Below, in pieces: positions 35,143 to 52,075 of a stretch of 64,000 nt of DNA. This stretch comes from Burkholderiales bacterium (lineage in GTDB: Bacteria > Pseudomonadota > Gammaproteobacteria > Burkholderiales > Thiobacteraceae), in the NCBI GenBank assembly GCA_018781585.1, contig JADMJT010000021.1:1-64000 (forward strand), written 5' to 3'. The notes beneath the pieces were generated by a model that was given only the letters and a program-made list of their open reading frames with translations, was not told the origin of the DNA and made no database searches. The position numbers and the translations under genes are program-made. The first letter of the stretch is position 1. The number at the start of each line of letters is the position of its first letter.

Positions 35143-35691
35143 CTAGCTCCTCGGTTGCCACAGCACATCCGGCACACCTAATTCCTTGCTGATCGCACGA
35201 CACATCACGAACAGTAAATCGGAGAGGCGGTTGAGATACTTCAGCGCGGCGGGGGAGATGGGTTCTTGTTGATTGAGCGCAACCAAGCGCCGCTCCGCGC
35301 GGCGGCACACCGCGCGCGCCACATGACACAGCGCCGTTGGGCGTGAGCCGCCCGGCAGAATAAACTCCTTTAACGGCAACAGCGCGTCATTCATCGCATC
35401 CAACGCTTGCTCTAGCTGCGCCACCATCGCATCGCTTATTCGTACATAGTTTGGGATCGACAGTTCACCGCCGAGCTCAAATAGTTCGTGCTGGATACGG
35501 ATTAGGGTGATGCGCATGGAATCCGGCAAGGTGCTTTCCGTCAGCAGCAGGCCAAGCTGGCTATTCAGCTCGTCAATGTCGCCAATGGTTTCGATGCGCG
35601 CGCTATTTTTTGTCACGCGTATGCCATCTCCCAAGCCGGTGCTGCCGTCGTCGCCGGTCTTGGTATAAATCTTGGAAAGGCGGTGACCCAT
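35143..35691 (-). CDS. Cob(I)alamin adenosyltransferase, PduO type
   Basis: MGHRLSKIYTKTGDDGSTGLGDGIRVTKNSARIETIGDIDELNSQLGLLL...FILPGGSRPTALCHVARAVCRRAERRLVAL. Confidence 0.94.
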   Translation of the reverse strand: MGHRLSKIYTKTGDDGSTGLGDGIRVTKNSARIETIGDIDELNSQLGLLLTESTLPDSMRITLIRIQHELFELGGELSIPNYVRISDAMVAQLEQALDAMNDALLPLKEFILPGGSRPTALCHVARAVCRRAERRLVALNQQEPISPAALKYLNRLSDLLFVMCRAISKELGVPDVLWQPRS

Positions 35692-35777
35692 GATTTGCTC
35701 GCTTTGAAATAGATGCAGCGAGGATATCATTTTCCCCTCGAGCAAGCTGGCCTGAGCGGCACAGCGTTCACAGCGGC

Positions 35778-36113
35778 TTATTTATCTTTTTCGGCAGGGG
35801 CGGATGGGATGGCGCAGGGCAAGGCGCGTTCATCCGTGCGGCGATCGGCTAGGATGCGCAGTTGGTTGCTGCGGGCGAATTCCATGACATATTCATAAGC
35901 TGAGGGGTTGCTCTGTTCGAGGCAACGCGCCACTACCAGGCACTTCTCGCCATCAATCAAGCAGGGCTGCACGCTGACGGAATAGTGCAAGCGGTGGTTT
36001 GCATCAAAACTCGCCAGCGTGGACGAAATGCGCTCGACCCAGTCGGTCGGGCGGAGTTTTTTCCCGTCTTCCTGTACGCCTGAAATGATGAAATGATCTG
36101 TAGGTAAGGGCAT
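35778..36113 (-). CDS. Hypothetical protein
   Basis: 111-aa ORF in the orientation of the hyf-like operon. Confidence 0.5.
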   Translation of the reverse strand: MPLPTDHFIISGVQEDGKKLRPTDWVERISSTLASFDANHRLHYSVSVQPCLIDGEKCLVVARCLEQSNPSAYEYVMEFARSNQLRILADRRTDERALPCAIPSAPAEKDK

Positions 36114-36244: not shown

Positions 36245-36754
36245 TTAACGCGCGCTGATTGCGGCCAAGATGCCTTGCATGATGGCGATGGGGGTGGGCG
36301 GGCAGCCGGGTACCGCGACATCTACCGGGATAACATTCGACACGCGGCCGCAGCTTGCATAGCTCTCACCGAAAATGCCGCCGGTGCAGCCGCAGTCGCC
36401 GATGGCGACCACGAATTTGGGTTCGGGCGTCGCATCAAAGGTGCGCTTAAGCGCGACTTCCATATGCTTGGCGACCGGGCCGGTCACCAGCAGCATGTCG
36501 GCGTGGCGCGGGCTGGCGGTGAATTTGATGCCGAGCCCTTCGATGTTGTAGTAAGGATTATTCAGCGCGTGGATTTCCAATTCGCAGCCGTTGCACGAAC
36601 CGGCATCGACATGGCGGATGGAGAGCGCTTGCCCAAACACGTGCAAAATTTCCGCTTGTAGGCCTTGCGCGGCGGTTCTAAGGGCGTCATCGGCGACGGG
36701 ATGCGGCTCGGTCTTGATGCCGGTTTTCAGAATTTGTTTCAGGATTTGGTACAT
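36245..36754 (-). CDS. NuoB/HyfI-like [4Fe-4S] small subunit
   Basis: HVDAGSCNGCELEIHALNNPYYNIEGLGIKFTASPRHADMLLVTGPV...IGDCGCTGGIFGESYASCG...VPGCPPTPIAIMQGIL. Confidence 0.93.
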   Translation of the reverse strand: MYQILKQILKTGIKTEPHPVADDALRTAAQGLQAEILHVFGQALSIRHVDAGSCNGCELEIHALNNPYYNIEGLGIKFTASPRHADMLLVTGPVAKHMEVALKRTFDATPEPKFVVAIGDCGCTGGIFGESYASCGRVSNVIPVDVAVPGCPPTPIAIMQGILAAISAR

Positions 36755-36756
36755 GG

Positions 36757-38304
36757 CTACAAGTCCTGTCCGGTATAGCTCAAGTTGAACGATTTATTGA
36801 TCAAGGGAAAATCGGGCACGATATTGCCGATCACCGCGTGTTCCAACACGGGCCAGTTTTGCCATGAGGGATCATGCGGATGCATGCGCGCAATGCGATT
36901 GTCGGCGCCAACCTGCAAGCCGATCAACACCTCGCCGCGCCAGCCTTCCACCATACCGATACCGTATGCGCCTGCCGGTGCGGATGGCACGGGTGCGGTA
37001 AGCGGGCCTTCAGTTAGCTTATCCAGGATCAGCCGCGTCAGGCGCAGCGATTCCAACACTTCCTCGACGCGCACGATGGCGCGCGCCGCCACGTCGCCGT
37101 TGCGATGGGTGGCCATGCGCACATCCAATTCGTTGTAGGGCGCGCACGGATATTGCGCACGCAGATCCCAGGCTTGGCCGCTGGCGCGGCCGGGCAGGCC
37201 GGTCAGCCCCAGCTTGGCGGCGCGATCGGGCGAGACGCGTCCGGTGGTCAAGAAGCGGTCTTGCAACCCGGCGTGCTCGTCATAGATGGCGCGCAGCGTG
37301 CCGATTTCCTGCTCCAACTTTTCCGTTTCCGCCAACAAGCGCGCCTTGCCTTGCGGCGGTAGATCGCAGGCCACGCCGCCGGGGATAATGCGATCCATCA
37401 GATAGCGGTGGCCAAACAATGCGCCGTTGGCGCGCAGCACGTCTTCTTTCAAAATCCAGAACTGCGCGAAGCCGAAGGACAGCGCCACATCGTTGCCGAG
37501 ATAGCCCAAGTCGCCCAAGTGATTGTGAATGCGCTCGCGCTCCAGCAACAAGGCGCGCAGTAGCAAAGCACGCGGCGGCGGCGTAACGCCGGTCATGCTC
37601 TCCAGCGCCATGGCATAGGCCCAGGCATAGGCGCAAGTGGCGTCGCCGGAAACCCGGCCGGCGAGCTTGGCGCCCTGCAAGGCATCCATGGTCTCGGCCA
37701 GTTTTTCGATGCCTTTGTGCTTGTAGCCGAGGCGTTCTTCCAAACGCAGCACGCGTTCGCCCACGATCGAAAAACGGAAGTGGCCGGGTTCGATGGTGCC
37801 CGCATGCACCGGCCCCACGGGGATTTCATGCACGCCGTCGCCGAGCACGGGGATGAAGGGATAGGCGTCGAGCCCAGTGGCCATCTTCTGCGTAAAGTCG
37901 AATTCTTTGCGAAGGGGAAACTGCCCCTCAGGCCAGCAACCATGCCGTATCCATTTACGCTGATCCACCGCATCTTTTGCGCATAGTCCGAGCATGTCGT
38001 AAGCGGCGCGCTGCATGCGCTCGGCCGGCGGAAAGATCGCGCTGATATCCGGATAGGCGGGCTGATTCGCGTCGAGCGCAAGGCTCAGCATCAACAAGCC
38101 TGGATGCGTGGCGAGCGCGACGTGTAGCGCAAAACCCTGTCCGTTTGCACGTTCGTCACTGCCCCACAGGGCGAGCAAGCGTCCGCCGCTCTCGCGCACT
38201 TGTGCGCACACGGGCTGTAAACGGTCGGCGCCGATTTGCGCGCGCCAGGCGGGGATCGCACCGGCTAGTGCATGAAATTCAATGTTTAAGTCTTCAAGTT
38301 GCAT
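36757..38304 (-). CDS. HyfG/NuoCD-like large subunit lacking Ni-ligand cysteines
   Basis: Fused NuoC-like and NuoD-like domains; L1 site reads RVSGDATCAY (no CxxC) and L2 reads HDPSWQNWPVLEHAVIGNIVPDFPLINKSFNLSYTGQDL (no DPCxxC). Confidence 0.9.
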   Translation of the reverse strand: MQLEDLNIEFHALAGAIPAWRAQIGADRLQPVCAQVRESGGRLLALWGSDERANGQGFALHVALATHPGLLMLSLALDANQPAYPDISAIFPPAERMQRAAYDMLGLCAKDAVDQRKWIRHGCWPEGQFPLRKEFDFTQKMATGLDAYPFIPVLGDGVHEIPVGPVHAGTIEPGHFRFSIVGERVLRLEERLGYKHKGIEKLAETMDALQGAKLAGRVSGDATCAYAWAYAMALESMTGVTPPPRALLLRALLLERERIHNHLGDLGYLGNDVALSFGFAQFWILKEDVLRANGALFGHRYLMDRIIPGGVACDLPPQGKARLLAETEKLEQEIGTLRAIYDEHAGLQDRFLTTGRVSPDRAAKLGLTGLPGRASGQAWDLRAQYPCAPYNELDVRMATHRNGDVAARAIVRVEEVLESLRLTRLILDKLTEGPLTAPVPSAPAGAYGIGMVEGWRGEVLIGLQVGADNRIARMHPHDPSWQNWPVLEHAVIGNIVPDFPLINKSFNLSYTGQDL

Positions 38305-38313
38305 GATTCAGAC

Positions 38314-39765
38314 TCATTTCCCAAGCAGCGCCGCAGCTTGCTGATACCAGCCGGCAAGATACGGTGGAATGAACAGCCCGAGCAACAACACCAGGGCTAG
38401 GTGCACAAACACCGGCACCAGCGCGGGCGGGTGCGGCAGACGCGGCAAATCAGTTTCGCCGAACACCATCGGCTGCACTTTGGCGAAAATCGACGCGAAG
38501 GCCACGCCCAGCGCCAATAATAAAATCGGTGTCGCCCACGGATGGCTATGCATGGCGGTGGTCAGAATCAAAAATTCGCTGGCGAAGACGCCGAACGGTG
38601 GCATGCCGAGAATTGCCAGCGTGCCCAGCATCAGGCCCCAACCGATGGTGGGGCTTTGTTTGATCAAGCCGCGAATATTTTCCATGAGCTGCGTGCCGGT
38701 GGTTTGCGTGGCATGACCGACGGCGAAGAAGATCGCGGATTTAGTCAGCGAGTGCACCGTCATGTGTAACAGGCCGGCGAAAGTAGCCACCGCGCCGCCC
38801 ATGCCGAAGGCGAACGTGACCAAGCCCATGTGTTCAATCGAGGAGTAAGCGAACATGCGCTTCACGTCTTTTTGCCGTGACAGGAAAAAAGCCGCCACGA
38901 CGACCGACAGCAGGCCGAAGCCCATCATCAAATTGCCCGCGAAATTTGTACCGAGTGCGCCATCGGCCAACACCTTGCTACGCACCACGGCGTATAGCGC
39001 CACGTTCAACAACAGACCGGAGAGTACCGCCGAAACCGGCGTCGGGCCTTCGGCATGGGCGTCCGGCAGCCAGTTGTGCAGTGGCGCTAAGCCGACCTTG
39101 GTGCCATAGCCCACCAATAGAAACACGAAGGCGAGTGACAGCACGGTTGGTTCGAGTTGGGTTTTTACCGCGTTTAAATGCGTCCACAACAGCGAGTCGC
39201 CCCCCGGCCCCAGTACACGCTCCGCTGCGAAGTAAAGCAGGATGGTGCCGAACAGCGCCTGTGCGATGCCCACACCGCACAGAATAAAATATTTCCATGC
39301 CGCTTCGAGACTAGCCGGGGTGCGATACAAGCTCACCAGCAGTACCGTGGTCAGTGTCGCCGCTTCCATCGCCACCCACATGATGCCCATATTGTTGGTG
39401 GTGAGCGCGAGCAGCATGGTGAAGGTAAATAGCTGATACATGCTGTGATACAGCCGCAGCATATTGATGGTGAGCCTGCCGTGATGTTGCTCGATGCGCA
39501 TATAAGGGCGCGAGAAGAGCGAAGTGGTAAAGGCCACGAAGGCAGTCAGCGCCACCAGAAACACATTGAAGGAATCGATAAAAAATTGCTCATCGAAAGC
39601 CGTGATCGGGCCATCATTGATAATGCGCGTGGTCAATACCGCCGCAGCGATAAAGGTGGCGAAGCTGAACACCGCATTCACCTCGGGCGCGAAGCGACGG
39701 CAGCCCACTGTCGCGAGAAAAATTCCGCCAAACAAGGGCATGCCTAAGAGCCAGAGAATTTCCAC
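38314..39765 (-). CDS. HyfF-like proton-translocating antiporter subunit (GTG start)
   Basis: LLVGYGTKVGLAPLHNWLPDAHAEGPTPVSAVLSGLLLNVALYAVVR; the ORF track starts at 39942 but the GTG at 39765 fits the adjacent gene end. Confidence 0.9.
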   Translation of the reverse strand: MEILWLLGMPLFGGIFLATVGCRRFAPEVNAVFSFATFIAAAVLTTRIINDGPITAFDEQFFIDSFNVFLVALTAFVAFTTSLFSRPYMRIEQHHGRLTINMLRLYHSMYQLFTFTMLLALTTNNMGIMWVAMEAATLTTVLLVSLYRTPASLEAAWKYFILCGVGIAQALFGTILLYFAAERVLGPGGDSLLWTHLNAVKTQLEPTVLSLAFVFLLVGYGTKVGLAPLHNWLPDAHAEGPTPVSAVLSGLLLNVALYAVVRSKVLADGALGTNFAGNLMMGFGLLSVVVAAFFLSRQKDVKRMFAYSSIEHMGLVTFAFGMGGAVATFAGLLHMTVHSLTKSAIFFAVGHATQTTGTQLMENIRGLIKQSPTIGWGLMLGTLAILGMPPFGVFASEFLILTTAMHSHPWATPILLLALGVAFASIFAKVQPMVFGETDLPRLPHPPALVPVFVHLALVLLLGLFIPPYLAGWYQQAAALLGK

Positions 39766-39766
39766 T

Positions 39767-40429
39767 TCATTCGTCCTTGAGTTTTTCCATATGACGCAGA
39801 TCGAGACTGTCGAACGTTTCGCGAATCTGGAAGAAGAAGATGCCGAGAATGAACATCCCCACCAGCACATCCAGCGCAATGCCGAGTTCCACCACCAGCG
39901 GCATGCCGTAGGTGGCGCTGGTCGCGGCGAAGAACAAACCATTTTCCATGGCCAGGAAGCCGATCACTTGCGGGATGGCTTTGCGCCGCGTCAACATCAT
40001 TAAGAACGACAGCAGCACGATGGCGATGGCGATGCCCAGGGTGCTGCGCGTGATGGTGCCGGCAAGCTGCGTAATCGGCAGCGCCAGGTTGAAGGCGAAA
40101 ATCACCAGCATGATGCCGACCAGCATGGTGGTCGGAATGTTGATCAGCGTCTCCACATCCCATTTCACGTTCAGCTTGCGGATCAGGCGATGCAGAATCC
40201 ACGGCAGGATGATGACTTTCAACACCAAGGTCAGCGCGGCCGAGTAATACAAATGCTGCTGCTGCGTGCTCATGGCGACGACCAGGGTGCTGATGGTGAG
40301 CACCACGCCCTGCCACGCAAACAAGTTGATCAAGGACAACACCCGCCGCTGCGACAGCATGGCGAATGCGATCAACAGCAAGAGTGCTGCCAGCAGATTA
40401 ATCAATTGTCCGCTCAGGGAAACCGACAT
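39767..40429 (-). CDS. HyfE-like membrane subunit
   Basis: LINLLAALLLLIAFAMLSQRRVLSLINLFAWQGVVLTISTLVVA...MENGLFFAATSATYGMPLVVELGIALDVLVGMFILGIFFFQIRETFDSLD. Confidence 0.88.
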   Translation of the reverse strand: MSVSLSGQLINLLAALLLLIAFAMLSQRRVLSLINLFAWQGVVLTISTLVVAMSTQQQHLYYSAALTLVLKVIILPWILHRLIRKLNVKWDVETLINIPTTMLVGIMLVIFAFNLALPITQLAGTITRSTLGIAIAIVLLSFLMMLTRRKAIPQVIGFLAMENGLFFAATSATYGMPLVVELGIALDVLVGMFILGIFFFQIRETFDSLDLRHMEKLKDE

Positions 40430-40430
40430 C

Positions 40431-41384
40431 TCAGGCCCCCAACAGGAAGTGGATGAGCATGCCCAACACCGCAAGCAGGAACGCGGTGCCCAAGAATTCC
40501 GGCGCACGGAAGATACGCATTTTGGCCGAAATCGTTTCCAGCAGGGCGAGACCGGCGCCCGCCGCAACTAATTTCACACCGAGCGCGATCAGGGCCAGCG
40601 GCAACGCGGCCCAATTGCCTGCCTCGGCAATACCATAGGGAACAAACAGCGCGAAACCAATCGTGGTATAGGCGAGTAATTTGATGCTGCTCGCCCATTC
40701 GATCAGCGCCAGATGGCGCGCGGAATATTCGAGGATCATCGCCTCGTGAATCATGGTGAGTTCGAGATGGGTGGTCGGATTGTCCACTGGGATGCGTGCG
40801 TTTTCCGCCAGCAGAATCATCACGAAGGCGATCGCGGCGAACGCCATGCTGGGATAGAGCGTGAATTGTGTATGTGCTAAAGCTTCGACGATGGTTGGCA
40901 GCTGGGTGGAGTGACTAATCAGCGAAGCGGTGAAAAACACCATCAACAGCGCGGGCTCGGCCAGAAACGCGACCAACATTTCGCGCCGTGCGCCCAGGGT
41001 GCCGAACGAAGTACCGATGTCCATTGCCGCGAGCGCAATGAACACGCGCGCCAGGGCGAAAATGCCGACCAGCGCGATCACGTCGGCCGCAGGTGAAAAA
41101 GGCAGATCGGTCGCCAGTACCGGCACCACGCCCGCCGCCAGCCACATGCAAGAAAACAGAATATACGGCGTCACCCGGAACAAGGGCGAGGCGTTGTGTG
41201 CGATCACCGCATCCTTGTGGAACAGCTTGCGCAGCGTGCGATAGGGTTGCAGCACGCCTGCACCGCTGCGGTTTTGCAGCCAGGCGCGGCACTGATTGAC
41301 CCAGCCGAGCAGGAGCGGCGCGATCGCCACCACCAGCAGCGATTGAAATAATTGAAACAGAATGCCGGAAAGTTGCGCGCTCAT
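40431..41384 (-). CDS. HyfC/NuoH-like membrane subunit
   Basis: LLLGWVNQCRAWLQNRSGAGVLQPYRTLRKLFHKDAV...ENARIPVDNPTTHLELTMIHEAMILEYSARHLALIEWASSIKLL. Confidence 0.92.
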   Translation of the reverse strand: MSAQLSGILFQLFQSLLVVAIAPLLLGWVNQCRAWLQNRSGAGVLQPYRTLRKLFHKDAVIAHNASPLFRVTPYILFSCMWLAAGVVPVLATDLPFSPAADVIALVGIFALARVFIALAAMDIGTSFGTLGARREMLVAFLAEPALLMVFFTASLISHSTQLPTIVEALAHTQFTLYPSMAFAAIAFVMILLAENARIPVDNPTTHLELTMIHEAMILEYSARHLALIEWASSIKLLAYTTIGFALFVPYGIAEAGNWAALPLALIALGVKLVAAGAGLALLETISAKMRIFRAPEFLGTAFLLAVLGMLIHFLLGA

Positions 41385-43408
41385 GACCATCTCACCAATA
41401 CCAACATTAAGAGCAGCGTGACGAAGCTGTACATGAGGTACAAATGAATTCGCCCATGCTGCAAGATGCTGATCCAAGCAGAAAGTTTGTCCGCCGCTTT
41501 TGCGATCGGCAGATAGAGCCCGTACCACAGCTTATCCTCGCTACGACCGTGGTAGCGCGGTTCGCGGTCGAAGGGGCTGGGCACTTCGCGTTCGATTAAA
41601 AAGAACGGTTCGAAGATTTGCCGGATCGGTTGACCGAAGCCTTCTGCCGAGTCCTGCATGCGCGGTGTTTGTTCCGGAAAGCCACAGTCCCAGGCCGGGC
41701 CGCGGCGCAGGCGGCCATGATAAAAGCGGCGCACCGCGAGGAACGTGATCAGCAGCACCACCAGAATGGCCAGCAGGAAGAACAGTGGGCTGTAGCTCGC
41801 GCGTTCCGGCGCGATCGGGGTCAGGAATAGCCAGCCTGTTTTGGCCGCGCTCATGCCGAGCGTGTCGCCGATCAGCGCCTGTGTCACGTGATCCAATTGC
41901 AGGATGACTTGCACTGGGAACAAGCCCAGCAAAATACAGCCGAGCGCGAGCCAGGCGAGCCCCAGGCGCTCCCACCAACCGGCGTCATGCGCTTCATTGA
42001 GCTTTTCATCGCGCGGTTGGCCCAGGAACACGATGCCGTAGAACTTCACCATCACGTACGCAGCCAAGGCGGCGGCGAGCGCGATGGCCGCGGTCGCCAC
42101 CGGGATCAGCATATTTAGATAAGGCTGCGGCAAATCGGGCGTGAGCAAGAAGGCTTGCAGCAACAGCCATTCCGAGACGAAACCATTGAGCGGCGGCAGG
42201 CCGGCAATCGCCAGGGTGCCCACCAATACTAAGGCCGCGACCCATGGCATGCGTCGAATCAATCCACCGAGACGGCCCAAATTGCGCTCGCCCGTGGCAT
42301 GCAGCACCGAGCCTGTGCCTAGAAATAATAAACTTTTGAAGAAGGCGTGATTGAGGGCGTGATATAGCGTGGCGGTCAAGGCCAAAGCAGCGAGTGATTC
42401 TTTACCATTGGCGTGGAACAGGATGGCAAGCCCGATACCCACCAGCAGAATACCGATGTTCTCGATCGAAGAATAAGCCAACAGACGCTTCATGTCGGTC
42501 TGCACCGCGGCGAACATCACGCCGAACAATGCGGTGATCAGCCCCAGCGTGAGTGCGAGCACGCCCCACCACCAAATTTCCCCGCCCAGAAAATCGAACG
42601 TGATGCGCAGCAAACCATAGATCGCGGTCTTCAACATAATGCCGCTCATCATCGCCGACACCGGGGAGGGCGCAGCTGGGTGCGCCTCCGGTAGCCATAC
42701 ATGCACCGGCAGCAGACCGGCCTTGGCGCCGAAACCAAATAGCGCGAGTGAAAACGTGATCGAAGCCCAGAACGGTGTCAGATGCGCGGTACGCATGGCG
42801 TCGAAGGTGTACGCCGCAATGCCGTGGCCGCCTTGCATGACACCGAAGGCCAACAAGATGCTGATGGCGCCCACATGCGCAATCAGCAGATAAAGATAAC
42901 CTGCTTTGCGAATTTCCGGCACTTTGTGATCGGTCGTGACCAGGAAATAGGATGAGAGCGCCATCGACTCCCACGCCACCATAAACAAATAGGCGTCATT
43001 GGCCAGCAATACCAGCGCCATACTCGCCAGAAAGAAATGATATTGCAACGCTAACAAGGCCAGCGCGCGGGCTTCCATGTGCCGGAAATAACCCGCGCTG
43101 TATAGGGAAATAGCGAAACCGGCAGCGCCCAGCAGCATCAAGAAAAATGCCGACAACGCATCCAGTCGCAAGTGGAACGGCAAATCGGGCAGGCCGAGCG
43201 GGAGCACCGCGACATTCGGTGTTTGGCCAAGCGCGACCAAGCCGGTACCCGCCAACACCAGCGCGCCCAGCGCGCCCGCCGGGAAAATGAGCTGCGTGAT
43301 GTGCTTGGGGGAGCCGATCAGCAGCAGGGAGAACATGCCCAGCACCAGCCAGTACACGACGACTCCACCCGCGATATCGATAGGAAGCAAGGTCAACAGG
43401 GTTTCCAC
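41381..43408 (-). CDS. HyfB-like proton-translocating antiporter subunit
   Basis: AKAGLLPVHVWLPEAHPAAPSPVSAMMSGIMLKTAIYGLLRITFDFLG...WDCGFPEQTPRMQDSAEGFGQPIRQIFEPFF. Confidence 0.92.
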   Translation of the reverse strand: METLLTLLPIDIAGGVVVYWLVLGMFSLLLIGSPKHITQLIFPAGALGALVLAGTGLVALGQTPNVAVLPLGLPDLPFHLRLDALSAFFLMLLGAAGFAISLYSAGYFRHMEARALALLALQYHFFLASMALVLLANDAYLFMVAWESMALSSYFLVTTDHKVPEIRKAGYLYLLIAHVGAISILLAFGVMQGGHGIAAYTFDAMRTAHLTPFWASITFSLALFGFGAKAGLLPVHVWLPEAHPAAPSPVSAMMSGIMLKTAIYGLLRITFDFLGGEIWWWGVLALTLGLITALFGVMFAAVQTDMKRLLAYSSIENIGILLVGIGLAILFHANGKESLAALALTATLYHALNHAFFKSLLFLGTGSVLHATGERNLGRLGGLIRRMPWVAALVLVGTLAIAGLPPLNGFVSEWLLLQAFLLTPDLPQPYLNMLIPVATAAIALAAALAAYVMVKFYGIVFLGQPRDEKLNEAHDAGWWERLGLAWLALGCILLGLFPVQVILQLDHVTQALIGDTLGMSAAKTGWLFLTPIAPERASYSPLFFLLAILVVLLITFLAVRRFYHGRLRRGPAWDCGFPEQTPRMQDSAEGFGQPIRQIFEPFFLIEREVPSPFDREPRYHGRSEDKLWYGLYLPIAKAADKLSAWISILQHGRIHLYLMYSFVTLLLMLVLVRWS

Positions 43409-43428: not shown

Positions 43429-45600
43429 TCAGGCCGCGCCGCTCGCCGGGCGCAGCAGGCAAAATTCCGCATCGGCATCAGTTTCGCACAGATTGCGATA
43501 GACCATATCGAGCGCCCTATCTTCGGTGGTAAAAATGTTTTCCTCGCCGATCAACTCGCGCAGGCCGGTGTGTTCCATGACGTCCAGCACTTGTTTTTTG
43601 AGTCCGCTGAACAGTAGCGTCACGCCGTTGTCTCGCAGCCGTTCCACCAAGTGATGAATGACTTCTTCGCCCGAAGCATCGAGCTGGTTGATGCCGTCAC
43701 CCACCACCAAAATGTGCTTGGCCTTGGGATGATCCGCCGCCGCTTCCAGAATCGCGTCTTCAAAATACGCGACGTTGGCGAAGTAGAGCGAGCCATCGAA
43801 GCGAATCGCCACCACATGCTCGCTGGTAGGCAGATTATGCACTTTCACATCGCGCAGCGTGCCGTCGGCGTGGCGGCCGAGGATCGCGACACGCGGCGTC
43901 ATGGTGCGCAACAGATAGAGAATAATCGCCAACCCCGCACCCACCATAATGCCATTGTCCAAGTGGGGCGCGAATGCCAGCGTGGCGACGAAGGTCACGA
44001 CCGAAGCGATGCCGTCATGCTTGTGCGCGTGCCAGGCATGCTTAATCGCTTTGAAATTGATGAGCCCGATGACTGCCATCATGATCACCGCCGCCAACAC
44101 CGCTTGCGGCAAGTGATACAAGAGGGGTGTCAGGAACAGCAAGGTCACTAACACAATCAGACCGGTATAGACGGAGGACATGCCCGTCTTGGCGCCTGCG
44201 TTCAGGTTCACCGCCGAGCGCGAGAACGAGCCGGAGGCCGGGAACGATTGCGACAGGCTCCCCACCAGATTGGCGAGGCCCTGTCCGATCAATTCCTGGT
44301 TCGGGTCGATGCGCTGCTTGGTCTTGGCGGCCATGGCCTTGGCGATGGAAATCGCCTCCATGAAACCCACCAGCGAAATCACCAGCGCACTGGAGAGTAG
44401 GGTGCCGATCAACTCCCAACTGATTTTGGGCACTTCGAGACTCGGCAAGCCGGAGGGAATGCTGCCCACCACTTCGCCGCCGCCGACGAGCTTAAGCTCA
44501 CCTTGGCTGATTTTTTTGACACGCCAGCGGTGACCATCGGTTTTCAAATCCCGCGGCGCCTGGCCATGGAGATATAAGCGATCAGATTCACCCGCGGCGC
44601 CTGGCACGCGTTCGAGAATGAATTTGCGCAGCGCCCGGTTGCGCTTGCGGTTTTCCGCTTCCAGATCCGTCAAGCCGAGGCGCAGTAATTCGACTTCATA
44701 ATGCAGGGCGGCAAGGTGCTGATTGCTTTCGTTTTCCGCTTTTTCCTGGGTTTTGATCGCAGCCGATTTGGCGCTGATCTGCTGGTTGATCTCGCCGATT
44801 TTTTGTTCAGTGGCCGAGAAGTCGCTGGCGAGGGTACGGACTTCGCTGTCCATGATCTGCTCGACCTGGCCCGTGCTATTGCGCTCGAATCCGATCGCAA
44901 AACTCACCACGGTGGTGAGCGTCACAGCGATCAGTACGCCGGGTAGTTTCGGCGCGTATTTCTTCAGCCCCCACATGATGGCGAAGGCGGATACGCCCAT
45001 GAGCAGGGTCGGCAGATGGGTTTCGCCGATTTGCATCAGCACGCCCCAAATATCATTGATGAAATGCTCGCTGCGCCCCATGGAGACGCCGAAAATTTTA
45101 TTCAACTGCGACAGGCCGATGATGATGGCGGCGGCGTTGGTGAAGCCGACGATGACAGGGTGGGAGAGAAAATTCACCACTACGCCAAGTTTAAATACAC
45201 CCAAGGTCAGTTGCACGATGCCGACCAGTAGCGCCAACAAAATGGCGAGCGCGACGAAGGCTTCAGAGCCAGTCGCAGCTAACGGCGCGAGCGCAGAGGC
45301 AGTCAAGAGCGAGGCAACGGCAACCGGCCCCGTGGCCAACTGCGCCGAAGACCCCCAGAGCGCTGCGATGATGCCGGGCAGGAATGCCGCATAAAGACCG
45401 TAATAAGCGGGCAGACCTGCCAATTGCGCATAGGCCATGGATTGCGGGATCAACACCAGCGCGACTGTGACGCCGGCGAGCAGATCAGCGCGCATCGTGT
45501 CACCACGGAACGGAAGCCATTTAAGGAAAGGGAAGAATTTAGCGAGTGACATGTGGCTGTCTCGATTCATGTGCGGTTGTGCGGCAATTTCGCGTGGCAT
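43429..45600 (-). CDS. SulP family anion transporter with STAS domain and internal coiled-coil-like insertion
   Basis: DLLAGVTVALVLIPQSMAYAQLAGLPAYYGLYAAFLPGIIAALWGSSAQLATGPVAVASLLT...; C-terminal STAS with HILVVGDGINQLDASGEEVIHHLVERL. Confidence 0.93.
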   Translation of the reverse strand: MPREIAAQPHMNRDSHMSLAKFFPFLKWLPFRGDTMRADLLAGVTVALVLIPQSMAYAQLAGLPAYYGLYAAFLPGIIAALWGSSAQLATGPVAVASLLTASALAPLAATGSEAFVALAILLALLVGIVQLTLGVFKLGVVVNFLSHPVIVGFTNAAAIIIGLSQLNKIFGVSMGRSEHFINDIWGVLMQIGETHLPTLLMGVSAFAIMWGLKKYAPKLPGVLIAVTLTTVVSFAIGFERNSTGQVEQIMDSEVRTLASDFSATEQKIGEINQQISAKSAAIKTQEKAENESNQHLAALHYEVELLRLGLTDLEAENRKRNRALRKFILERVPGAAGESDRLYLHGQAPRDLKTDGHRWRVKKISQGELKLVGGGEVVGSIPSGLPSLEVPKISWELIGTLLSSALVISLVGFMEAISIAKAMAAKTKQRIDPNQELIGQGLANLVGSLSQSFPASGSFSRSAVNLNAGAKTGMSSVYTGLIVLVTLLFLTPLLYHLPQAVLAAVIMMAVIGLINFKAIKHAWHAHKHDGIASVVTFVATLAFAPHLDNGIMVGAGLAIILYLLRTMTPRVAILGRHADGTLRDVKVHNLPTSEHVVAIRFDGSLYFANVAYFEDAILEAAADHPKAKHILVVGDGINQLDASGEEVIHHLVERLRDNGVTLLFSGLKKQVLDVMEHTGLRELIGEENIFTTEDRALDMVYRNLCETDADAEFCLLRPASGAA

Positions 45601-45610
45601 TTTTTCAATT

Positions 45611-46024
45611 TCATTTGCGTGGTGTGGCGGTCACTAAAGGGCATTCCAATTTTTTCCAGGGATCGCTGCTGCTATCTTGAGCCAGCGTTTCCCACCCCTC
45701 GAGGGAATCGATCACCACGGCGGAAACACACTCATGCGTGTTGGCGTAATCAACGATGTCGCGGCGGCGCAAGCTCGGCTTCCGGGTCAAGTTGAAATAA
45801 AGCCCTTCGGCCCGCAACGATTCCAGTAGTGCTTGCAATGGCTTAGGCAATAATTCACCGTTGACGATGGCCAGAATCTCCAGACCCGCGTCCATCCTCT
45901 TGCACAAATTGAGCGCGGCGGTGAGCAGGCGCTGATCGATGCAGTTCTCACGCACGGCCAGCAGCACTTTTTTTTCGGGTTCCATCAAGGGCATGAGAGT
46001 TTTACATAGCGGTTTTCGTGCCAC
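45611..46024 (-). CDS. Universal-stress-protein-like (UspA-like) protein
   Basis: MEPEKKVLLAVRENCIDQRLLTAALNLCKRMDAGLEILAIVNGELLPK...; true start may be 45994 or 45985. Confidence 0.65.
   Translation of the reverse strand: MARKPLCKTLMPLMEPEKKVLLAVRENCIDQRLLTAALNLCKRMDAGLEILAIVNGELLPKPLQALLESLRAEGLYFNLTRKPSLRRRDIVDYANTHECVSAVVIDSLEGWETLAQDSSSDPWKKLECPLVTATPRK
46009..46023 (-). promoter_or_regulatory. Candidate sigma54 -24/-12 element for the usp-sulP-hyf operon
   Basis: Reverse strand TGGCACGAAAACCGC: perfect -24 TGGCACG and correctly spaced GC at -12 (TT replaced by CC). Confidence 0.4.
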
Positions 46025-46226
46025 CTCATGAAAATATTACAACCTGTTGAATCAAAAAATAAAAATGTATTTAAAGTACCGTTTGTTTGATTCTCTATAT
46101 ATTGCATATTGTAATAATTAGCACAAAATGCTACGTCAGACCCATTCAATTTTGTTTATTTTCAGGTGTTGCATCAGGCGGGCTATATGTTGCAAAATGC
46201 AATTTCTGAATTTATTCCTGTAGCCC

Positions 46227-47732
46227 ATGCATTCCCTGCGCCAGAAAATTATCTTCGGCTATTACGCGGTCGGCACCCTAATCGTGGGTCTATCGCTATT
46301 TGCTTTTGTGGAGTTATATCTGATTGAGGAAAAAATTCTGGCCGGGGGGCGGATTTCAGAGTTTTTTGACGTAACGCTGGAGATACGCCGGTTCGAGAAG
46401 AATTATTTTCTTTACCGGCAGGTAGCGGATCTGACGGAGACCCAGCGCTATGTGCATCAGGCGCAGGCTTTGCTGCGCGAGAACGCTGAGGTGTTTGAAG
46501 CAATCGCGACCGCTACGCGGATGGCTGTGCTGCGAGATCAGTTGACGCAGTATGCCGCCCTGATGGGGGAATACGCGACCTTGGGTGACGCAGGCACGGC
46601 ACGTACGGAGGCGCTAGAAATACGCATCCGCCAAGCCGGTAAAGAGATGGTCACGGTGGCCGAGGGGATCGCCCGGGCCGAGCGCGCTACGCTGCAATCT
46701 TCGCTCGACCGGCACCGGCGCGTGTTGCTCATCTCCATCGTGGTGCTGGTGATGGTGGTGGTGGTCATCGGCCAGCTTTTATCGCGACGCGTGGCACGGC
46801 CGCTCAAAAGTTTGGAAGATGACATGGAGGCGGTAGCCAACGGCAAGTTGACGCAGCTGGATCGGGTGAGTGATGACCGCGAGATCGTTTCGCTTACCCA
46901 CGCCTTCAATCATGTGCTGCGCGAATTGGAATTGCGTCAGACGCATCTCGTGCGCGCCGAGAAGCTGGCTGCACTGGGTACGCTGCTCTCTGGCGTAGCA
47001 CATGAACTCAACAATCCTTTGTCCAATATTTCCTCCTCCTGCCAGATTTTGATGGAGGAGGGAGATGAAGCCGATCCGACATTCCGGCGGGAGTTGCTGG
47101 GCCAGATCGATGAGCAGACCATTCGGGCGCGCAATATTGTGCGCTCCCTGCTCGATTTTGCCCGCGATCGCGAATTCAAGACCGCGCCTTTGCAGCTCGC
47201 GCAATTGGTCAAAGAAACCCTGCGTTTTCTCAAGGGCCAAGTACCGACACAGGTGACGCTTACTACCGACATTCCATCCGATTTGGTGTTGCAAGGGGAC
47301 AAGCAGCGCCTGCAACAGGTGTTCCTCAATCTGATCAAGAACGCAGCAGAAGCCCTGGAGAGTGCGGGGAAAGGCGCGGGGGAGATCCGCATCTCTGCGC
47401 ACCGGGGGCGCGTGACTGGCGATTCGGCTCCGCCTGGCGCGGGCGAGCACTTTTTCGCCTTCGGCCGCTGCGAGGGTCACGGCGAGGTGGTGGATATCGA
47501 GATACGAGATAACGGCAGCGGCATTCCACTCGACATTCTGCCGCGCATTTTCGATCCCTTTTTCACCACGCGCGAGGTGGGCAAGGGCTCGGGGCTGGGA
47601 TTGTTTATCGTATTTGAAATCATCGAAGAACACGGCGGCTGCATCGCGGTGGAGAGCGTGCCGGGCCAAGGCACGGCCTTCTTCATTCGCCTCCCGCTAC
47701 CATCAGGAGAAAGTGTTGAACATCATGGCTAG
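46227..47732 (+). CDS. Membrane sensor histidine kinase (HAMP, NtrB/AtoS-like)
   Basis: Two TMs, HAMP, AALGTLLSGVAHELNNPLSNISSSCQIL, HATPase DNGSGIPLDILPRIFDPFFTTREVGKGSGLGLFIV. Confidence 0.93.
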   Translation: MHSLRQKIIFGYYAVGTLIVGLSLFAFVELYLIEEKILAGGRISEFFDVTLEIRRFEKNYFLYRQVADLTETQRYVHQAQALLRENAEVFEAIATATRMAVLRDQLTQYAALMGEYATLGDAGTARTEALEIRIRQAGKEMVTVAEGIARAERATLQSSLDRHRRVLLISIVVLVMVVVVIGQLLSRRVARPLKSLEDDMEAVANGKLTQLDRVSDDREIVSLTHAFNHVLRELELRQTHLVRAEKLAALGTLLSGVAHELNNPLSNISSSCQILMEEGDEADPTFRRELLGQIDEQTIRARNIVRSLLDFARDREFKTAPLQLAQLVKETLRFLKGQVPTQVTLTTDIPSDLVLQGDKQRLQQVFLNLIKNAAEALESAGKGAGEIRISAHRGRVTGDSAPPGAGEHFFAFGRCEGHGEVVDIEIRDNGSGIPLDILPRIFDPFFTTREVGKGSGLGLFIVFEIIEEHGGCIAVESVPGQGTAFFIRLPLPSGESVEHHG

Positions 47733-49086
47733 CCAAGGAAGATTGCTCATCGTGGACGACGAAAAGGTCGCCCTCAAAAATCTAGAACACGTCATGAAGA
47801 AGGAAGGTTATGAAGTCACCGCAACGCAGAGCGGCGCTCACGCCCTGGCTTTTTTGGAGAAGCAACCCTTCGATGTGGTGCTCACCGATCTGCGGATGGA
47901 GAAGGTGGATGGCATGCAGATCCTGCGCAAATGCCGCGAGGCCTCTCCTGATACGGAAGTGGTGCTGATCACCGGTTACGCCACACTCGAGTCGGCGGTA
48001 GAGGCCATGAAGCACGGCGCATTTTATTACATCGCCAAACCGTTCCGTTTGGACGAAGTGAGAAAAGTAACCGCCGAGGCGATGGAGAAAACCCGCCTAA
48101 AACGCGAGAACCGCAGCCTGCGCGAGCAGGTGGAAAATTTCCAGGGCAAAGTCCGCATCATCACCCAAGATCTTAAAGTGCAGCGCCTGCTGGAAATGGC
48201 GCGCCAGGTCGCGCCGACCGGTTGCAACATTTTGATCACGGGCGAATCCGGCACCGGCAAGGAGCTGTTCGCGCGCTATCTGCACGCCCAAGGCGAACGC
48301 AGCGAGGGGCCGTTTCTGGCGGTCAACTGCGGCGCGTTTAATGAGGAGTTACTTTCCAACGAACTATTCGGTCACATCAAGGGTGCGTTCACTGGCGCGG
48401 GCACGGATAAGAAAGGGTTACTGGAGGCGGCATCCGGCGGCACCCTGTTTTTGGACGAAATCACCGAGATGTCGCCCGCCATGCAGGTGAAGCTGTTACG
48501 CGTGATTCAGGAGCGCGAAGTGCTACCGCTGGGTGGCACAGTGCCGCTCAAGGTGGACGTGCGATTCATTGCCGCCACCAACCGTGATGTGCAAGACATG
48601 GTGCGCCAGGGCGGCTTCCGCCAGGATTTGTATTTCCGTTTGAACGTGGTCAACTTGCATATCCCCCCCCTGTCACAGCGCAAGGAGGATGTGCCGCTCC
48701 TGGCTTACCATTTCCTGCGGAAATACGCCGCACTGATGAAAAAGGCGGTGACGGAGATCGCGCCCGCCGCCCTGGATCTGCTCAAGGTTTACGCCTTTCC
48801 GGGCAATATCCGCGAGTTGGAAAATATTATTGAGCGCGGCGTGGCCATCAGCACCGGCCCGATCATCGAAGTCACTCACCTGCCCGAGGATTTGCGTGAC
48901 TTATCCATCCGTACTTTCCGCAAGAAAGACGGCCGCATCCCGTCTTTAGACGAACAAGAGAAGGACTACATTCGCTGGGTGCTGGAAGAAGCCGGCGGCA
49001 ACCAGACCCAAGCGGCGCAAATCCTCGGCATCGACCGCGTCTCGCTCTGGCGTAAGCTCAAGCGCTATGAGCTTGAGGCGGAATGA
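47725..49086 (+). CDS. Sigma54-dependent response regulator (NtrC family)
   Basis: REC LLIVDDEKVALKNLE; AAA+ GESGTGKELFARYLH, GAFTGA motif, GGTLFLDEITEM; Fis-type HTH NQTQAAQILGIDRVSLWRKLKRY. Confidence 0.95.
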   Translation: MASQGRLLIVDDEKVALKNLEHVMKKEGYEVTATQSGAHALAFLEKQPFDVVLTDLRMEKVDGMQILRKCREASPDTEVVLITGYATLESAVEAMKHGAFYYIAKPFRLDEVRKVTAEAMEKTRLKRENRSLREQVENFQGKVRIITQDLKVQRLLEMARQVAPTGCNILITGESGTGKELFARYLHAQGERSEGPFLAVNCGAFNEELLSNELFGHIKGAFTGAGTDKKGLLEAASGGTLFLDEITEMSPAMQVKLLRVIQEREVLPLGGTVPLKVDVRFIAATNRDVQDMVRQGGFRQDLYFRLNVVNLHIPPLSQRKEDVPLLAYHFLRKYAALMKKAVTEIAPAALDLLKVYAFPGNIRELENIIERGVAISTGPIIEVTHLPEDLRDLSIRTFRKKDGRIPSLDEQEKDYIRWVLEEAGGNQTQAAQILGIDRVSLWRKLKRYELEAE

Positions 49087-49092
49087 AGCGCC

Positions 49093-49653
49093 TCAAAACT
49101 CGTTCTGCAACTTCTTATACCCCTTCACCAGCTCATGATTGGCGCGCGCCACGGATTCGGAAAAATCCGCGGTCTGCGGCGTGACCTGCTGGATGTTCGC
49201 GAGGTCCGAACTGGAGTGGATGTTGGTCGTTGAAGGAATATAGAAGCCTGCGGGGATTTCGCAGCCTTCCACCACCGAGTTGTGGCGCACCACCGAGCGT
49301 TCGCCGATGGTGCAGTTGAACAGCACTGAATTAAATCCGATGAATACATGGTCGCCCACTACGCACGGCCCATGCACGATGGAGCGATGGGCGATCGAAG
49401 TGAACTTACCGATTTGCACCAAGCCCCCCGCCTTGGAGTGGATCACCACGCCATCCTGAATATTCGAGTTTGCACCGATGATGACCGGCTCCATCTGGCC
49501 ATTTTCATCCACCTCGTCGGCGCGGATCACCGCATAAGGTCCGACAAACACGTTTTCCTCGATGATGATTTTGCCGCAGATGATCGCGGTCTGGTCCACA
49601 TAGGCGGATTCATGGATTTGCGGAATATCGCCGCTGGGGTTTTTTCGGATCAT
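49093..49653 (-). CDS. Gamma-carbonic-anhydrase-like left-handed beta-helix protein
   Basis: GANSNIQDGVVIHSKAGGLVQIGKFTSIAHRSIVHGPCVVGDHVFIGFNSVLFNCTIG: NxQD, H and HxxxxH pattern as in Cam-type gamma-CAs. Confidence 0.85.
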   Translation of the reverse strand: MIRKNPSGDIPQIHESAYVDQTAIICGKIIIEENVFVGPYAVIRADEVDENGQMEPVIIGANSNIQDGVVIHSKAGGLVQIGKFTSIAHRSIVHGPCVVGDHVFIGFNSVLFNCTIGERSVVRHNSVVEGCEIPAGFYIPSTTNIHSSSDLANIQQVTPQTADFSESVARANHELVKGYKKLQNEF

Positions 49654-49748
49654 GGCTCGCGTACCGGAAACAGGATTTATCGGAGAACTGCGATGCAATC
49701 ATAGGTTTATTGCATGGTCAGGCTGGTCAGCCCTAACGATATGAATTA

Positions 49749-49760
49749 AAATTGCAATTT
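49749..49760. promoter_or_regulatory. Perfect 12-bp palindrome AAATTGCAATTT between gamma-CA and SulP2
   Basis: Sequence dyad in the divergent intergenic region. Confidence 0.4.
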
Positions 49761-49932
49761 GTATCGTAGGTGTTTAATTTTGCATCAATCAGGCCGGAGC
49801 CGATTCTGCCGGAAAAGAGCAGAGCGGTAAAGGCCGGTTCCGCTGTTTCCATCTTGATTCGGTTTTTCTGTCCTGGCTTTTTAAGCCGGGTTTTGGTCGT
49901 GTCTGTCAGTACCAGAAAATATTTAGGAAGTT

Positions 49933-52062
49933 TTGATGATCTCCAAGAAGCTGTTGCAGCGATTTTTCCCCTTTCTCTCCTGGTTTCCGGTCGATTCCAT
50001 CGTTCTACGCGGCGACCTGATTGCCGGTATCACGGGTGCCTTGGTGCTGGTTCCCAAGGCCATGGCCTATGCTCAACTAGCGGGGTTGCCGGTGTATTTC
50101 GGTCTCTACACAGCCTTCATTCCCGCCATCCTCGGAGCCTTGTGGGGCTCATCGCGGCAACTGGCCACCGGCCCCGTGGCGATTGTGTCTCTCATGACCG
50201 CCGCCGCAGTCGCGCCGCTTGCGGTGCCCATGACGGAAAGCTTCATTGGTCTCGTACTGCTCTTAACCTTCATGGTGGGCTTGATCCAATTCGGGTTGGG
50301 GACCTTAAAACTGGGCACCGTGGTCAATTTCGTATCGCATCCGGTCATATTGGGTTTCATGAATGCGGCGGCCATCATCATCGCCATCTCCATGCTCGAC
50401 AAGTTATTGGGCATTCCTAAGGGACGGAGCGATTCGTTCCTGGTGGATGTGTGGGAGATGTTGGGCTACTTGCCGCTGACCCATTTGCCGACGCTGGCCA
50501 TGGCGGTGTTTGCCTTGGCGTTGATGCTAGGCTTGAAGAAAGTGCCGTTGCTGGCGAAGACCAGCGTGCTGATCGCGGTGATTATCACCACGCTGGTAAG
50601 CGTTGCTGTGAATTACGAACAGAGTGCCAAGGGTCAGCCTGATTTGATCGCCGATTCCGCCGCGCGTGAGCTGGTGACGAGCTATGCCACTACCGAGCAG
50701 CGCATTAACAGCCTCCTAGCCGAGGTAACGGCCAAGTCGACGCAACTGCGCGCCTATGAAAAAGCCAACAATCCCCGTGCTGCTGCTGATCTTCGGCATG
50801 ACATTGATCTCATGAAGCTGGATAGCGCGAGCTTGGAAAAAGAAAACAAGCAGCGCTTGCACTACATTCGCAAACTGCAATTCGAACGCGCCAAAGCGGC
50901 AGATGGACAGCCCACCGCGCTCTATTTGAAAGGCATCGTGCCCACCGGCATCGAGACTGATGGCCATGCCTGGCATATCAAGAAAATCGAGAAGGGTGAG
51001 ATGAAGCTGATCGGCGGGGGCGAGGTGGTCGGCACCATTCCCCAAGGCTTGCCTTCCCTGCGCGTGCCCACACTGAGCTTCGACGCCCTGATGTCCCTAT
51101 TCTCGGCGGCGATCATCATCTCGCTCGTGGCCTTCATGGAGTCGATCTCCATGGCCAAGGCCATGGCGGCCAAATCCAAGCAGAAGGTCGATCCCAACCA
51201 GGAGCTGATCGGCCAGGGCTTGTCCAATCTTGGTGGCGCTTTCTTCCAGGCTTATCCGGCGTGCGGTTCCTTCACCGGTTCCGCCATCAACTTGCAGGCC
51301 GGGGCCAAGACCGGTTTTGCCATGGTGTTCAACGGCGTGTTCGTGGCCATGACGCTGCTGTTTCTTACGCCCTACCTGTATCACCTTCCCCAAGCTACTT
51401 TAGCGGTGATCATCTTGCTGGCCGTGGTCGGGCTGGTGAATATTCCGGCGTTAAAACATACCTGGCAGGCCAGCCGATCCGACGGCATCGTTGCTTTTAC
51501 CACTTTCAGTGTCACCCTGCTGGCCGCCCCGCATTTGGATAAGGGCATCATGGTGGGTGCGATACTTGCCATCGTGCTCTACCTCTATCGCACCATGAAA
51601 CCCCGCGTGTCGCAGCTTGGGCGGCACAAGGACGGCACCCTGCGCGACGTCAAGGTTTATCCAGACATGCCCACTAGCGAGCATCTGATTGCCATGCGTT
51701 TCGACGGCTCGCTCTACTTTGCCAACGTGTCTTATTTTGAAGACACCGTGCTCGAAGCCGTGGCCAGCAAACCCAATGCCAAATACCTGCTGGTGGTGGG
51801 CGAGGGCATCAACCAGCTTGATGCCACGGGTGAGGAAATGTTGCATCACCTGGTGGAGCGGCTGCGTGAAACGGGTGTGGTGATTGTGTTCTCCGGCCTG
51901 AAAAAACAGGTGCGGGACGTGATGCAAGCCACTGGCTTGAACGAACTGATCGGCGCGGACAATTTCTTTCCCACCGAAGATTCGGCGATTGCGGCGGTCT
52001 ATGAGCGTCTGGGGGTCGAGGCGGAGGACGATCTGTTCTGCGCGCTGCCAGCCCGGGCCTGA
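49933..52062 (+). CDS. SulP family anion transporter with STAS domain and internal coiled-coil-like insertion
   Basis: Close paralogue of the 43429-45600 product, including the insertion and C-terminal STAS. Confidence 0.93.
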   Translation: MMISKKLLQRFFPFLSWFPVDSIVLRGDLIAGITGALVLVPKAMAYAQLAGLPVYFGLYTAFIPAILGALWGSSRQLATGPVAIVSLMTAAAVAPLAVPMTESFIGLVLLLTFMVGLIQFGLGTLKLGTVVNFVSHPVILGFMNAAAIIIAISMLDKLLGIPKGRSDSFLVDVWEMLGYLPLTHLPTLAMAVFALALMLGLKKVPLLAKTSVLIAVIITTLVSVAVNYEQSAKGQPDLIADSAARELVTSYATTEQRINSLLAEVTAKSTQLRAYEKANNPRAAADLRHDIDLMKLDSASLEKENKQRLHYIRKLQFERAKAADGQPTALYLKGIVPTGIETDGHAWHIKKIEKGEMKLIGGGEVVGTIPQGLPSLRVPTLSFDALMSLFSAAIIISLVAFMESISMAKAMAAKSKQKVDPNQELIGQGLSNLGGAFFQAYPACGSFTGSAINLQAGAKTGFAMVFNGVFVAMTLLFLTPYLYHLPQATLAVIILLAVVGLVNIPALKHTWQASRSDGIVAFTTFSVTLLAAPHLDKGIMVGAILAIVLYLYRTMKPRVSQLGRHKDGTLRDVKVYPDMPTSEHLIAMRFDGSLYFANVSYFEDTVLEAVASKPNAKYLLVVGEGINQLDATGEEMLHHLVERLRETGVVIVFSGLKKQVRDVMQATGLNELIGADNFFPTEDSAIAAVYERLGVEAEDDLFCALPARA

Positions 52063-52075
52063 CGCTGAAAATAGA

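Follow-up and report, generated by a model that had tools for sequence, protein, structure and literature searches.

Complexes of the energy-converting hydrogenase-related (Ehr) class combine a group-4-like large subunit devoid of Ni ligands with antiporter-like subunits (PMC6349859, PMC10284858), and an electron-donating module or partner has been described for Mbx and the proposed FDH-Ehr. In Pyrococcus furiosus MBS (Mbx), also a hydrogenase-derived complex with an altered active site, two of the four Ni cysteines are left and three cysteines hold the proximal cluster (PMC7684303). The E. coli hydrogenases-3/-4 (HycE, HyfG), in contrast, contain the Ni ligands, ferredoxin subunits (HyfA/HyfH, HycB/HycF) and HyfD, and are accompanied by a maturation protease and hyp genes.

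Clusters of the hyfBCEFGI type that are not hydrogenases have been published before. They are described in Cupriavidus, as "incomplete" (PMC2864759), and in Nitrospira (PMC5596200), and the catalytic subunit of Acidithiobacillus ferrooxidans is classed by HydDB as a non-hydrogenase (PMC7735108). The accessible portions of these reports give no replacement motif, no argument from the loss of ferredoxin subunits and no SulP/DAB context.

The locus analyzed here lies within a window of 64,000 nucleotides (the whole stretch of DNA under study) from a bacterium of the Thiobacteraceae. It comprises six intact, tightly spaced genes, hyfBCEFGI (Table 1), whose products are homologous to subunits B, C, E, F, G and I of the E. 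coli hydrogenases. The clusters of Cupriavidus metallidurans/C. necator, At. ferrooxidans and Nitrospira share both the six genes and their order; for At. ferrooxidans and Nitrospira the comparison used the published description.

Table 1. Features of the hyf locus and its surroundings (positions within the window)
Feature	Position	Strand	Remarks
hyfI-like small subunit	36245..36754	-	169 aa, no C-terminal extension; four [4Fe-4S] cysteines C54, C57, C121, C151
hyfG-like large subunit	36757..38304	-	515 aa; fused NuoC-like and NuoD-like domains; Pfam PF00346, PF00329
true L2 position, NKSFNLSYTGQDL	36760..36798	-	C-terminus, replacing IGSLDPCxxCTDR; alignment; kept in ~100 homologues
HPHDPSWQN motif	36856..36882	-	conserved within family, not Ni site; aligns to HycE AATYANW
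L1 position, RVSGDA	37639..37656	-	replaces RxCGxC; family consensus RxSGD[S/T]; alignments
hyfF-like antiporter subunit	38314..39765	-	NF005045 above cut-off; key Glu/Lys kept; GTG start inferred
hyfE-like membrane subunit	39767..40429	-	NF008556, E=1.5e-26, below its cut-off; start inferred
hyfC-like subunit (NuoH/HycD family)	40431..41384	-	PF00146; several E-channel acids kept; start inferred
hyfB-like antiporter subunit	41381..43408	-	NF005086 above cut-off; Glu/Lys/Lys/Glu kept
SulP-family transporter	43429..45600	-	723 aa; insert splits Pfam domain; PF00916 + STAS; 20 bp upstream of hyfB
small conserved ORF, dubbed USP-like	45611..46024	-	upstream of SulP; no Pfam match
sigma-54-like site, TGGCACGAAAACCGCT	46008..46023	-	weak -12 half; same site in L033
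HAMP sensor histidine kinase	46227..47732	+	divergent from operon; adjoins several hyf loci
sigma-54-activating response regulator	47614..49086	+	true start probably ~47725
CcmM-like gamma-carbonic-anhydrase-type hexapeptide protein	49093..49698	-	NF053794, NF040597, both below cut-off
second SulP	49933..52062	+	same insert type, 57% identical

Loss of the Ni ligands from HyfG

An earlier note on this DNA, made from the sequence alone, had read the large ORF as a Hyf-like large subunit, and this identification holds. In addition to its two Pfam domains, the protein has HycE of the E. coli formate hydrogenlyase as its nearest PDB relative by sequence, and HycE is also the top fold match of its AlphaFold model (TM 0.84). 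The same note claimed that the cysteine pairs of both Ni-binding motifs are lost. This was borne out by alignment for L1, where R-V-S-G-D-A of the window protein stands opposite R-V-C-G-I-C of E. coli HycE. In the case of L2 the note was right about the loss but not about the place: DPSWQN (36856-36873), which it took for L2, aligns with AATYANW of HycE and APSFVN of NuoD. The real L2 is formed by the final 13 residues of HyfG, where NKSFNLSYTGQDL replaces IGSLDPCYSCTDR of E. coli HycE/HyfG (letter by letter, N-K-S-F-N-L-S-Y-T-G-Q-D-L against I-G-S-L-D-P-C-Y-S-C-T-D-R), with both cysteines gone. Since the true L2 also lacks its cysteine pair, the conclusion of the note stands despite the misplaced evidence.

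All four Ni ligands are thus missing from L1 and L2. No displaced Ni-ligand cysteines were found, and HyfG does not have the C-terminal tail by which L2 is followed in HycE/HyfG. The loops at the former active site (residues 148-196 and 491-515) were modelled by AlphaFold with low confidence, too uncertain to define a cavity. At the level of the genome (98.7% complete) neither of the maturation proteins HypA and HypD was found, and no PF00374 match over the cut-off, indicative of a [NiFe] hydrogenase, was detected. Taken together, these comparisons support the view, already expressed in the earlier note, that the predicted complex is not a [NiFe] hydrogenase.

Subunit composition, conservation and origin of the family

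The cysteine motifs of the small subunit (CNGCE, GDCGC and PGCPP) are all present, as the note had stated. HyfI contains the hydrogenase-type CxxC (CNGC) and not the adjacent Cys pair (CC) of NuoB, and displays the CxxC...C...C proximal-cluster pattern of the small subunits of group 4 [NiFe] hydrogenases. Residues C54, C57 and C121 are invariant in 97 of 97 homologues and C151 in 96 of them, the sole exception being a gap. Both Mrp-type antiporter subunits (HyfB and HyfF) are encoded, and the pattern of ion-channel residues in HyfF matches that of E. coli HyfF. Downstream of hyfI we observed DUF3579 and cobalamin adenosyltransferase genes (window 35143-36113); PduO likewise lies 3′ of hyfI in several relatives and adjoins SulP in the hyf-less locus L211.

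Electron-entry subunits of the HyfA/HyfH type are likewise missing from the operon, a point not raised in the earlier note. A tblastn search of the loci with HyfA, HyfH, HycB, HycF and NuoI revealed no ferredoxin subunit of the HyfA/HyfH/NuoI type beside the clusters of this family. The ferredoxin subunits that it did detect adjoin Ni-type or complex I loci (L196, L052, L202 and L186), are located kilobases away from the family cluster (L057, L045 and L047), or, in the case of L065, form part of another cluster.

The replacement motifs, RxSGD[S/T] and NKSxNxSYxGxDL, are kept in about 100 homologues representing five phyla, and the C. metallidurans copy bears the same motifs in the alignment. 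L1 reads mostly RxSGD[S/T/A]; in seven members the first of the two L1 cysteines is retained, while the second L1 cysteine or the L2 cysteine pair occurs in none of the approx. 100 sequences. In a 36-sequence alignment D221, N503, K504, S505, N507 and Y510 of HyfG are invariant. Judging from these alignments, the site in HyfG is a replaced one under selection, and not one in decay. Chance or a sequencing error was rejected as the cause of the cysteine loss because the same substitutions recur in approx. 100 homologues, and a pseudogene was rejected in view of the six intact genes and of motifs strongly conserved across phyla.

Members of the family were identified in 52 of 249 sampled Pseudomonadota genomes, as well as in Nitrospirae, Acidobacteria, Rhodococcus and Allomeiothermus. 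The order hyfB-C-E-F-G-I is found in nearly all complete loci, including those of Rhizobium pRL11 and the Burkholderia plasmids; in the Rhodococcus members hyfI is placed first. Small HTH regulator genes adjoin standalone hyf clusters of more distant members (L197, L204 and L179). In public records the plasmid members (H5-H41) are labelled 'NADH-quinone oxidoreductase subunit C' or 'nickel-dependent hydrogenase large subunit'.

In the phylogenetic analysis the family grouped with other Cys-less sequences (L187 and L188) in a clade apart from HycE/HyfG, MbhL and NuoD. The support for this clade was 97 (UFBoot) in one tree; in a second tree, calculated with the Ni-site columns masked, the separating branch received 100/100 and the family was again apart from NuoD. 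The resemblance to Ehr proposed in the earlier note agrees with this topology. As the clade lies apart from HycE/HyfG and NuoD, it seems reasonable to group the family with Ehr, an assignment that rests on published descriptions (PMC6349859, PMC10284858) and on tree position, the reference set of the trees containing no named Ehr sequence.

One locus contains two large subunits. On the contig of L065 (1676-3587 and 9976-11602), genes for a Ni-bearing relative, L065A (RICGVC at L1 and NKSFELCYSCTDR at L2), and for a ferredoxin subunit lie upstream of a Cys-less cluster of the family. L065A joins the clade of the family, its exact place being weakly supported (43); this placement is consistent with loss of the cysteines from a Ni-bearing ancestor, and the pair may possibly represent a living intermediate. 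Other Cys-less large subunits (L187, L188 and L191) carry different replacement motifs (RFAATT, RVSGVG and RINAVD), and a ferredoxin match was found near L188; several Ehr-like types seem to exist. NuoD-like proteins of 401-422 aa (L189, L190 and L192) have RVCVPEP/RICVPEP at L1, with one cysteine retained.

Possible chemistry of the complex

We favor, with a probability of roughly 70%, the interpretation that the product of the operon is a hydrogenase-related energy-converting complex of the Ehr type, built from six subunits without a ferredoxin subunit, in which electrons would pass from a carrier through HyfI to the emptied cavity and drive ion pumping. A soluble one-electron carrier would dock directly on HyfI. 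No electron-donating module or partner such as those of Mbx and FDH-Ehr is encoded in the operon. Electron exchange would take place between the single cluster of HyfI and a small molecule occupying the former NiFe cavity, for which a lining of Ser, Asp, Lys and Asn is expected. This redox step would shift charge through HyfC and lead to the translocation of H+ or Na+ by HyfB and HyfF, and the whole pump may also run in reverse. The proposed ion pumping is based on the retention of key residues in HyfB, HyfF and HyfC.

The former cavity could alternatively bind quinone, as in NuoD, which would make the complex a complex I-like ferredoxin:quinone oxidoreductase. Complex I is likewise devoid of all four cysteines (PMC7684303), and NuoD models match the HyfG sequence; however, the column occupied by Tyr in complex I (RMDY, RIEY, RLDY) is Gly in HyfG, the cluster motif of HyfI is not that of NuoB, and the 100/100 branch splits the family from NuoD, so we regard quinone chemistry as unlikely. 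Catalysis at the proximal cluster by a sulfane-sulfur reductase appears improbable. Its appeal is that MBS is the best-studied relative in which part of the Ni site was lost, but MBS needs a three-cysteine proximal cluster and a hydrophobic chamber (PMC7684303), whereas HyfI keeps all four cysteines and the conserved replacements in the HyfG family, which has no Ni cysteine pair, are polar.

A decaying or non-functional hydrogenase operon would fit the term incomplete used in print (PMC2864759), but the integrity of all six genes, with replacement motifs so strongly conserved across phyla, makes it highly improbable. A [NiFe] hydrogenase using unusual Ser/Asp Ni ligands would be compatible with the modelled HycE-like overall fold; given the lack of HypA/HypD in the genome, of the C-terminal tail after L2 and of a cysteine pair at either motif, we find it scarcely credible.

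Gene neighborhood and a possible link to inorganic carbon

Along the operon the genes are arranged in the order gamma-carbonic anhydrase (gamma-CA), response regulator and kinase (divergent), small ORF, SulP and hyf, and the small ORF and SulP probably share one transcript. The sigma-54-like site in the window is weak and scores 12.5 of 14.5, a value equalled in 7.6% of random 480-bp windows; better sites (score 13.5, 1% background) are present upstream in L036, L066 and L071. Three SulP genes and the gamma-CA-type gene fall within 10.5 kb (43429-53863), and in two of these SulPs the Pfam domain is interrupted by an insert of roughly 115 residues. Apart from SulP, gamma-CA, kinase/regulator and PduO, the neighbor families, annotated in part, resembled housekeeping genes by sequence.

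Among 24 hyf-bearing relatives, 9, belonging to four families, have SulP immediately upstream of hyfB or separated from it by gamma-CA, and further named loci share this arrangement; a rough estimate that takes SulP counts and genome sizes into account puts chance adjacency at well under 1% per genome. The gene between SulP and hyfB is CcmM-like in L045, L047, L050 and L071. The window SulP is 49-67% identical to SulPs of alpha-carboxysome and DAB loci: the same type (49-60%) occurs in or beside alpha-carboxysome/RuBisCO operons (L205, L206 and L208), and the hyf-negative genome G052 (L212) shows the arrangement sigma-54 regulator (61% identical) - SulP (67%) - DabB - DabA (PF10070, 5.7e-87). 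DAB (DabA-DabB) thus resembles the present system in having an antiporter-type subunit within a SulP/sigma-54-regulator locus, and differs in its lack of hydrogenase-like subunits. RuBisCO is present in 16 of 23 hyf-positive and 12 of 36 hyf-negative relatives (p=0.008; per genus p=0.02; Fisher tests, which ignore phylogeny). The genome studied here carries carbon-fixation genes and no homologue of DabA (PF10070). In addition, hyf of A. caldus lies beside a carbonic anhydrase gene (PMC3826726), and for At. ferrooxidans a role of SulP, together with carbonic anhydrase, in bicarbonate uptake has been put forward (PMC6458275).

These associations allow the tentative suggestion that the Hyf-like complex directly powers the accumulation of CO2/bicarbonate, whether through vectorial hydration of CO2, as in DAB and NDH-1MS, or through an ion gradient supplied to the adjacent SulP; this possibility, which we hold with considerable reserve, is compatible with the energy-converting complex favored above and names its physiological output. 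Against it, SulP and gamma-CA are missing from most loci of the family, the plasmid members of Rhizobium, Burkholderia and Rhodococcus have no such neighbors, and family members also occur in relatives without RuBisCO. Moreover, L211 (G055) keeps SulP and PduO without hyf, and the comparison with DAB concerns one genome. Nor is DabA a clear stand-in for hyf: among RuBisCO-positive genomes it occurs in 3 of 16 with hyf and 4 of 12 without, a trend only, and mutual exclusion of Hyf and DAB was not adopted.

With SulP or RuBisCO missing from many members, the core reaction has to extend beyond carbon uptake, and a dissolved-inorganic-carbon function for the whole family is not supported, most members having neither SulP nor gamma-CA. 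In the SulP-linked lineages only, the SulP/DAB context suggests a role in inorganic-carbon uptake, and lineages whose operon has SulP and gamma-CA genes attached would probably use the ion gradient for bicarbonate uptake. The further proposal of a hydrogenase-derived CO2-concentrating machine in chemolithoautotrophs, sigma-54-regulated and with a nickel-free remodelled site, in which hyfBCEFGI replaces DabA-DabB beside a bicarbonate-type SulP, is doubtful at present. Our literature search, which lay mostly outside subscription journals, found nothing linking hyf, this SulP type and DAB, and it is this genomic context of hyf that looks new.

Members of the family frequently bear the annotation hydrogenase or NADH dehydrogenase, and H2 metabolism may therefore be inferred where it is absent. 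Being a minimal relative of complex I in which a single iron-sulfur cluster is predicted and the active site has been cleanly replaced, the complex would be useful for understanding how redox chemistry drives a pump. If the link to carbon is true, one further mechanism would join the few energy-coupled CO2-concentrating systems known.
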